Source: an uncultured Granulosicoccaceae bacterium (GTDB lineage: Bacteria > Pseudomonadota > Gammaproteobacteria > Granulosicoccales > Granulosicoccaceae). Taken from it: DNA of 59,864 bases. This document shows positions 14,198-15,622 of the stretch, in pieces. The notes below the pieces were generated by a model. It was not told where the DNA came from. It saw nothing but the letters and a program-made list of their open reading frames with translations, and did not search any database. The number at the start of each line of letters is the position of its first letter. Positions within the stretch are counted from its first letter, which is position 1. A program made the position numbers and the translations under genes. The stretch is from the NCBI GenBank assembly GCA_938003855.1, contig CALKXD010000162.1, positions 1-59,864 on the forward strand. The letters are read 5' to 3'.

Positions 14198-14225
14198 TTG
14201 ACTCTCTATCAACTTGATGCATAAT
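14198..14225 (+). promoter_or_regulatory. Promoter of the metZ leader
   Basis: TTGACT (14198-14203, five of six consensus bases) and CATAAT (14220-14225, five of six) are 16 bases apart, the best promoter match in this part of the window. The start would fall near 14231-14233, exactly where the SAM-II-like aptamer begins. The upstream part of the gap (13924-14197) shows no gene or clear structure. Confidence 0.7.
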
Positions 14226-14230
14226 TCAGT

Positions 14231-14283
14231 CTGCGCCGATTTGATTCAGCTTGCGGGCGCTTGAAAAATACAGCTAAAGCGAG
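14231..14283 (+). promoter_or_regulatory. SAM-II (SAM_alpha) riboswitch aptamer
   Basis: Seen: P1 pairs GCGCC (14233-14237) with GGCGC (14256-14260). The P1 loop starts GATTT (14238-14242). The pseudoknot pairs GCTTGC (14249-14254) with GC-AA-GC in 14273-14280, with one U and one A unpaired. The linker holds TTGAAAAAT (14261-14269), followed by AGCTAAA (14272-14278). Known: SAM-II is an H-type pseudoknot whose conserved blocks are GAUUU, UUGC, GCGC, UGAUAAAU and AGCUAAA, in this order and spacing, and it controls methionine genes such as metZ, metA and metX. Pairing positions differ in sequence from the metX aptamer but stay complementary. Inferred: S-adenosylmethionine binding represses metZ. 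Confidence 0.87.
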
Positions 14284-14329
14284 CTTTAGGCCCGCTGAAC
14301 ACTGTCGGCTATGCCATGGCATACGACAG
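14253..14329 (+). promoter_or_regulatory. Alternative helices of the metZ leader (putative expression platform)
   Basis: Bases 14283-14295 complement two aptamer parts: GCTTTAG (14283-14289) pairs with CTAAAGC (14274-14280), and GCCCGC (14290-14295) pairs with GCGGGC (14253-14258). These would break P1 and the pseudoknot, so the two folds exclude each other. A second strong hairpin follows: CTGTCG (14302-14307) with CGACAG (14324-14329), and TATGC (14310-14314) with GCATA (14319-14323). No T-tract follows either, so simple intrinsic termination is not supported. The metZ ATG lies 100 bases further. Confidence 0.6.
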
Positions 14330-14431
14330 AGGTACTGAGCAATGAGGGATGCCTTATTGCAAATGTAAAGCTGGCTTATCAGCCCTGCAAGCCGTACTCC
14401 CCCGTTATTTTACCTGCAGGTCTCAGCACAG

Positions 14432-15622
14432 ATGAATACCCTCGATTGGTCCGATCACGATTTTGCCACTGCTGCCGTTCGCGCCGGTCATCAACGCAGC
14501 AATGAAGGCGAAAACGCCGAAGCTATTTTTACCACCTCAAGCTTTGTCTTTGACAGCGCAGCTGAGGCTGCAGCGCGCTTTCAGAACAACGCGCCGGGTA
14601 ATGTGTACTCGCGATTCACTAATCCAACCGTGCGTGCGTTTGAGCAACGGCTTGCCGCGCTGGAGGGAGGGGAGTCCTGCATTGCTACCGCCTCTGGTAT
14701 GGCTGCGATCATGTCTACCTGTGTGGCTTTGCTTGCACCGGGCGAGCATGTGGTTGCGTCCAGCGGTTTGTTTGGTTCGACCTCGCAGTTCTTTAAAAAG
14801 TATCTGACCCGCATCGGCAATCCGGTGAGCTTTGCGCAGATTGATAGTATCGATGACTGGGCTGCCAGAATTACCCCGCAAACCCGCATGCTGTTTGTGG
14901 AGACACCTTCCAATCCCCTGACTCAGCTTGCTGATATTACCGCACTGGCAGCGCTGGCCAATGAGAGTAACGCGCTGTTGGTGGTAGACAATTGTTTCTG
15001 CTCGCCGGTCTTGCAGCGACCGCTGGAGCTGGGTGCGCACCTTGTGATTCATTCGGCTACCAAGTTTATTGACGGGCAGGGACGCTGTGTTGGTGGAGCT
15101 GTGGTGGGTGACAAAAAGCGCGTAGGTGAAGATATTCTGGGTTTTCTGCGCACGGCAGGGCCGACCATGAGTCCGTTTAATGCCTGGGTGTTTCTAAAAG
15201 GACTGGAGACGCTAGAGCTTCGAATGCAGCGTCATTGTGAAAGTGCTCTGGAGCTTGCCCGATGGCTGGATCAGCACGATGCAGTGTCGAAGGTGTATTA
15301 CCCGGGGCTGCAAAGCCATCCGCAGCATGCGCTGTGCAGGGAGCAGCAAAGTGGCTTTGGCGGAATCGTCTCTTTCGAGGTAGCGGGTGGCACCCGTGAG
15401 CGCGCCTGGCAGATAATAGACAATACTAAAATGCTCTCAGTGACCGCCAATCTGGGTGATGCTAAGTCGACAATCACTCACCCTGCGACAACGACGCATG
15501 GGCGTCTGACGGATCAGGATCGAGCGGATGCGGGGATAGGGCAAGGGCTGTTGCGGATCGGGGTCGGGCTGGAGTCTGTCGCCGATATCAAGGCTGATCT
15601 TGATCGCGGTTTTAGCGTCTAG
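14432..15622 (+). CDS. metZ: O-succinylhomoserine sulfhydrylase MetZ
   Basis: PLP enzyme that makes homocysteine directly from O-succinylhomoserine and sulfide, the direct-sulfhydrylation route to methionine. The protein has 396 residues. The PLP lysine is K211 in HSATKFIDGQGR. Other Cys/Met-metabolism signatures are YSRFTNPTVRAFEQRLAALEGGE, ETPSNPLTQLADI and the C-terminal ITHPATTTHGRL. Substrate assignment follows from similarity to Pseudomonas MetZ and the purF-metZ order; an O-acetylhomoserine enzyme is the alternative. The ATG has only a weak AGG about 11 bases upstream. A SAM-II riboswitch precedes it, so it should be turned down when SAM is plentiful. Confidence 0.93.
   Translation: MNTLDWSDHDFATAAVRAGHQRSNEGENAEAIFTTSSFVFDSAAEAAARFQNNAPGNVYSRFTNPTVRAFEQRLAALEGGESCIATASGMAAIMSTCVALLAPGEHVVASSGLFGSTSQFFKKYLTRIGNPVSFAQIDSIDDWAARITPQTRMLFVETPSNPLTQLADITALAALANESNALLVVDNCFCSPVLQRPLELGAHLVIHSATKFIDGQGRCVGGAVVGDKKRVGEDILGFLRTAGPTMSPFNAWVFLKGLETLELRMQRHCESALELARWLDQHDAVSKVYYPGLQSHPQHALCREQQSGFGGIVSFEVAGGTRERAWQIIDNTKMLSVTANLGDAKSTITHPATTTHGRLTDQDRADAGIGQGLLRIGVGLESVADIKADLDRGFSV

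Follow-up and report, generated by a model that had tools for sequence, protein, structure and literature searches.

The locus considered here lies upstream of metZ in an uncultured Granulosicoccaceae bacterium, on a contig of 59,864 nucleotides (referred to below as the window, i.e., the whole stretch of DNA analysed). It raises the question of whether a gammaproteobacterium controls this methionine gene with a SAM-II riboswitch and, if so, through which output. Such a riboswitch had been proposed by a sequence-only reading of the DNA, and the proposal is upheld by the metZ assignment, by conservation in all 14 genus members sampled, by covariation in P1 and P2b, and by the position of the promoter. 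The stretch 14233-14283 on the plus strand is confirmed as a SAM-II aptamer preceding metZ, with the following parts:

14233-14283, plus strand: SAM-II aptamer, comprising P1, L1 and the pseudoknot P2a/P2b (RF00521, model R1, conservation in relatives)
14233-14237, plus strand: P1 5' strand GCGCC, pairing with 14256-14260 (covariation)
14238-14242, plus strand: GATTT, block of L1 (invariant in alignment A1)
14245-14247, plus strand: P2b 5' strand TTC (best-supported register)
14251-14254, plus strand: P2a 5' strand TTGC (invariant in A1)
14256-14260, plus strand: P1 3' strand GGCGC (covariation)
14273-14276, plus strand: P2a 3' strand GCTA (invariant in A1)
14281-14283, plus strand: P2b 3' strand GAG (best-supported register)
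14274-14289, plus strand: perfect inverted repeat CTAAAGC-GA-GCTTTAG, which would hide the 3' pseudoknot strand (sequence)

The SAM-II blocks had been said to occur in the right order, and all of them are indeed located on the plus strand between 14233 and 14278, with GCGCC, GATTT, TTGC and GGCGC followed by TGAAAAAT (14262-14269) and AGCTAAA (14272-14278). An A-rich joint connects the 3' strand of P1 with A-GCTA-AAGC-GAG (14272-14283). A search for GATTTG-N-TTGC-N-GCTAAA gives one occurrence in the window, where shuffles would lead one to expect 0.01. A permissive search with the Rfam model RF00521 (SAM_alpha) over a 291-nt scan aligns end to end with 14223-14298 at 31.8 bits (E 1.2e-5), and this aptamer is the sole significant match in the 6.8 Mb genome (E 6.6e-5), where the runner-up scores 17.3 bits; neither the window nor the genome holds a further SAM-II copy. 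The score is below the RF00521 cut-off of 36 bits, which is a curation limit, and Rfam at the gathering threshold gives no match over the whole window. A sub-threshold score had been named, together with unconserved pairing, as evidence against a SAM-II element; the score is indeed sub-threshold, yet conservation at the paired positions is strong, and the SAM-II reading is, therefore, not refuted. The folding energy of the aptamer stretch taken alone is no better than that of shuffles (z +0.38), a value that is uninformative because the RNA is short and pseudoknotted. The long-loop SAM-II family (RF01726) has GATTTGA, TTGC and GCTAAA blocks like those of the window but was rejected as a match, since its score of 19.5 bits is far too weak for a cut-off of 44.

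The aptamer is embedded in the following arrangement of promoter, leader and gene:

14198-14203 and 14220-14225, plus strand: metZ promoter, with -35 TTGACT, a 16-nt spacer and -10 CATAAT (10/12 consensus)
14302-14329, plus strand: stable hairpin CTGTCG..ATGCC/GGCAT..CGACAG without a U-tract (sequence and fold)
14369-14373 and 14379-14392, plus strand: predicted distal anti-aptamer, complementary to aptamer positions 14249-14275 (minimum-energy pairs)
14384-14388, plus strand: CCTGC, with alternative predicted partners in the aptamer (14253-14257) or in GCAGG (14416-14420)
14416-14420, plus strand: presumed Shine-Dalgarno sequence GCAGG of metZ, 11 nt before the ATG at 14432
14432-15622, plus strand: metZ, O-succinylhomoserine sulfhydrylase, 396 aa (NCBIfam)

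The metZ product is recognised by NF006003 (655 bits, cut-off 522) and TIGR01325 (540 bits, cut-off 510), and the gene is preceded by purF and by a YkuD-domain L,D-transpeptidase/carboxypeptidase-like gene. The predicted transcription start is at about 14232-14233, near the first base of P1. As regards the promoter originally described, the hexamers hold and every one of the 14 genus members keeps TTGAC...CATAAT (GATAAT in one) equally far from P1, but P1 starts at 14233 and not at 14231. The leader between the end of the aptamer and the metZ start codon measures about 148-149 nt. It also contains a nine-codon open reading frame, MRDALLQM-stop (14342-14368, plus strand), with AGAGG ahead of it, which is in the metZ frame but closed by TAA; a leader-peptide reading of it was set aside, as conservation was not seen among the listed genus leaders.

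RF00521 detects the element directly before metZ in each of the 14 genus members, as well as in three further members of the family and in three other families, and five of these relatives exceed the cut-off. A covariance model with P1 only, R1, was built from 20 aptamers in metZ leaders of the genus, the family and the other families; it gives the window aptamer 79.8 bits, the window sequence being part of its seed. In a sample of 369 genomes drawn evenly across the GTDB class Gammaproteobacteria, which includes the betaproteobacteria, R1 matches 196 genomes (146 of 272 genera, E mostly below 1e-12), whereas the RF00521 cut-off is passed in 30. R1 also recovers 17 of 18 alphaproteobacterial SAM-II loci at RF00521 sites, with E down to 7e-11. 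As the two models match reciprocally, the window-type element is homologous to SAM-II in both directions. The aptamer can be lost, since all eight metZ leaders (L275-L282) of a sister genus in the same family lack a recognisable copy. One genome (G014, locus L274) has a partial match only, covering model positions 3-32 and far upstream of metZ. The exact 28-base gamma/beta core also turns up at L112, L113 and L132, under the record titles Chitinophaga pinensis (Bacteroidota) and Myxococcota/Myxococcales; these are either mis-binned MAG contigs or cases of horizontal transfer. Tandem SAM-II pairs, 93-120 nt apart, are found in genome G270 (L207, L208; nine R1 matches in all) and at L190, L206, L210 and L244, some of them before genes without a Pfam match; tandem pairs are already known from 44 examples (PMC9481103).

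Comparison of these aptamers bears out the claim that helix bases vary yet stay paired, for P1 as well as P2b. P1 consists of five base pairs, lies directly before GATTT and is closed after TTGC, and a further pair at 14232/14261 would be U-U. Across a set of 186 distinct gamma/beta sequences, its five pairs each form in 98-100% of cases despite sequence change, the variants including GCGCC/GGCGC, CCGCC/GGCGG, TCGCC/GGCGA, GCGCT/AGCGC and ACGTGT/ACACG, while the alphaproteobacterial P1 (CGTGGT/CCACG) differs throughout. From the published SAM-II fold, we take P2a to be TTGC opposite GCTA, with one U-U; as both strands are invariant, P2a falls outside the covariation test. The pseudoknot was tested by comparing all registers with shuffled partners. 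The best P2b register has three pairs, ends 3 nt before TTGC and begins 4 nt after GCTA, and is identical in alphaproteobacteria (z 3.4) and in the gamma/beta set (z 6.9; combined z 8.9). In the window, these pairs are U14245-G14283, U14246-A14282 and C14247-G14281, so that P2b includes one G-U and is weaker than its alphaproteobacterial equivalent. Overall, the window resembles RF00521 (found before metA, metZ and metX in alphaproteobacteria) in having P1 and an H-type pseudoknot, the GATTT, TTGC and GCTAAA blocks, a promoter immediately 5' of P1 and a methionine gene downstream; it differs in P1 (GCGCC instead of CGTGG), in the length of L1 (17 nt, mostly 20 in RF00521) and in its shorter P2b.

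Gamma/beta elements precede metZ in 138 cases and otherwise metX, metK, metF, metE, metH or metN, as assigned with NCBIfam on representatives. SAM is the likely ligand because these downstream genes belong to the methionine/SAM pathway and all fit SAM feedback. Beside these, SAM-II copies stand before an AAA-ATPase gene in L113 (87-4980, minus strand), L132 (2320-5580, plus strand), L054 and L202, in tandem in the last two. In L113, the AAA-ATPase gene is followed in the same run by a VWA/DUF2201-like gene and by a divergent S-adenosylmethionine synthetase, matched by Pfam S-AdoMet_synt N and C; the arrangement may be regarded as an unusual SAM-linked operon.

Three other explanations of the conserved element can be weighed against these data. 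Close variants of riboswitch classes can switch ligand, and SAM-class variants binding spermidine have been described (PMC10853860), so a SAM-II fold with another ligand, such as SAH or another adenosyl compound, could be envisaged; the invariance of GATTT, TTGC and GCTAAA and a set of downstream genes that includes metK, the pattern expected of SAM feedback, make this highly improbable. Still less probable is a minus-strand protein-coding or antisense feature. Its basis is RF02424 (Bp2_287), a Burkholderia sRNA family located before metZ/metX (PMC3521395), whose minus-strand match at 14207-14336 scores 36.3 bits, higher than SAM_alpha but under its own cut-off of 70. The RF02424 consensus, however, reads as a SAM-II core in reverse complement, and of its 43 listed class-wide matches, at least 39 fall on the strand facing an R1 site. 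The promoter, the terminators and the gene order all fit the plus strand, and it is in the plus-strand fold that P2b covaries. Bp2_287, thus, occupies the same place upstream of metZ/metX as SAM-II but was modelled as an sRNA gene on what appears to be the opposite strand. As for mere chance similarity, the score under the curated cut-off would allow it, but the rarity of the pattern, the covariation of P1 and P2b, and the presence of the element before metZ throughout the genus and in many other families refute it, leaving it a negligible probability. We are, accordingly, very confident that the metZ mRNA begins with a SAM-II riboswitch, which would repress metZ by feedback; SAM binding and the direction of regulation are what we infer. 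When SAM is plentiful, P1 and the pseudoknot would form around it and metZ expression would fall, closing a methionine/SAM feedback loop.

How the aptamer acts on metZ is a separate matter, as the leaders of this genus depart from those of its relatives. Among gamma/beta aptamers, 121 of 165 have an intrinsic terminator behind them, compared with 19 of 162 equally long upstream controls; among alphaproteobacterial aptamers, it is 16 of 19, compared with 3 of 19 controls. Most gamma- and betaproteobacteria would exert the SAM-II output through an intrinsic terminator directly 3' of the aptamer. In such terminator-type relatives, the terminator's 5' arm CCTGCTTTAG is a potential partner of the 3' pseudoknot strand GCTAAAGCGAGG, a pairing that would constitute a simple antiterminator, and the inverted repeat at 14274-14289 looks like the counterpart of this antiterminator-like hairpin. 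The window leader has no U-tract terminator, and none of the 14 genus leaders has one within 100 nt; the genus of the window has lost the intrinsic terminator typical of gamma/beta copies. It differs from the alphaproteobacterial RF00521 elements in the same respect, and also in carrying a predicted distal anti-aptamer.

In the genus, leaders exceed the matched aptamer window by 53-193 nt. The 90 nt immediately 5' of the start codon show excess complementarity to the aptamer in 14 of 14 cases (mean z -2.4 against shuffles and -2.5 against shuffled aptamers), while the upstream and two coding control windows give z values of -0.2, -0.25 and +0.2 and a third coding window a mean z of -1.2. By partition-function folding, the ribosome site becomes less accessible with the aptamer occupied in 12 of the 14 leaders, with no drop or a rise in the other two, and the mean drop is 0.135 versus 0.022 in shuffled leaders. 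The strand covering the ribosome site and the strand pairing with the aptamer have nucleotides in common in 11 of 14 folds. These 14 tests are not independent, since the genus members are related. For the window alone, neither the distal pairing (p 0.084) nor the drop in accessibility (p 0.06) is significant. GCAGG at 14416-14420 is predicted to be unpaired at 0.55 with the aptamer free and 0.35 with it occupied, and part of the ribosome site is paired with the aptamer in the free minimum-energy fold. In L001, L014, L018, L024, L025 and other genus leaders, the distal part looks like a degenerate reverse-complement copy of a large portion of the aptamer, the duplexes having 30-38 bases paired, as though an inverted duplication had produced it. 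A proximal anti-aptamer, GCCCGCTGAA (14290-14299, pairing with 14246-14258), exists in the window and in part of the genus; it was not taken as a conserved switch because the second half of the genus lacks it.

Two outputs are compatible with such a leader. Control could be exerted on transcription, either Rho-dependently or by a terminator without a U-tract; most gamma/beta and alphaproteobacterial SAM-II copies are followed by an intrinsic terminator, termination of transcription is the output of the metZ riboswitch in S. meliloti (PMC9373788), and the stable hairpin at 14302-14329 lies 3' of the aptamer. No genus leader has a U-tract terminator in the 100 nt examined, however, and the conserved complementarity sits just before the start codon, so that attenuation seems rather unlikely. 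Translational repression is favoured over it because of the distal complementarity, the drop in accessibility and the shared strand, and we put translational control of metZ at a distance in this genus, as modelled by folding, at an even chance. Without SAM, the aptamer would be engaged by the distal anti-aptamer (14369-14392), so that CCUGC (14384-14388) would not be free to bind the ribosome site; once SAM is present and the aptamer folds on itself, CCUGC would cover GCAGG. Distant translational control has likewise been proposed for the S. meliloti metA SAM-II riboswitch (PMC9373788), over 74 nt there as compared with about 150 nt here; the Shine-Dalgarno sequence is within the riboswitch region in S. 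meliloti metA, whereas here it adjoins metZ and would be reached via the distal anti-aptamer.

The occurrence of SAM-II outside the alphaproteobacteria, which the sequence-only reading had found of interest, is real in this genome but had been reported between 2005 and 2009. Corbino 2005 described SAM-II in Coxiella and Bordetella, with a promoter before P1 (PMC1273637), Barrick and Breaker 2007 gave gammaproteobacterial examples and considered horizontal transfer (PMC2258182), and Meyer 2009 listed Alpha-, Beta- and Gammaproteobacteria (PMC2704228). The window element, thus, adds one case to an already described riboswitch class, and its further interest comes from the breadth, the mislabelled relatives and the probable change of output. 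Leyn 2014, which used Rfam models, places SAM_alpha in Rhizobiales and Rhodobacterales only and describes a betaproteobacterial metXZ element before metX/metZ, with no ligand assigned, in which a pseudoknot of regions 1-4 and 2-6 is followed by terminators (PMC4239095). Betaproteobacterial SAM-II copies upstream of metX, mostly with terminators, were found here at L091, L097, L099, L114, L118 and L122, and betaproteobacterial metZ leaders carry SAM-II as well; these copies share place and pseudoknot/terminator layout with the metXZ element, the two being compared by description. By this analogy, the metXZ element is very probably SAM-II. In the literature consulted, no link was found among the names SAM-II, metXZ and Bp2_287.

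Somewhat more tentatively, and a little short of an even chance, all this may be joined into one history, in which the riboswitch of this genus gave up the ancestral terminator for a long-range platform, with a distal anti-aptamer mirroring much of the aptamer and competing with the metZ ribosome site, so that a 51-nt aptamer acts on translation over about 150 nt, and in which metXZ and Bp2_287 are of one SAM-II lineage that serves gamma- and betaproteobacteria as their main methionine riboswitch. Since the standard library detects 30 of 369 genomes where R1 detects 196, annotations and earlier surveys (e.g., PMC4239095) undercount SAM-II. Bp2_287, as an Rfam family, would have its strand corrected, and the metXZ element gains a ligand, if it is the same as SAM-II. 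The genus of the window offers a probable example of an aptamer fold that was kept while its output changed from termination to translation, and SAM-II appears as a major methionine/SAM regulator of gamma- and betaproteobacteria that the standard library has mostly missed.
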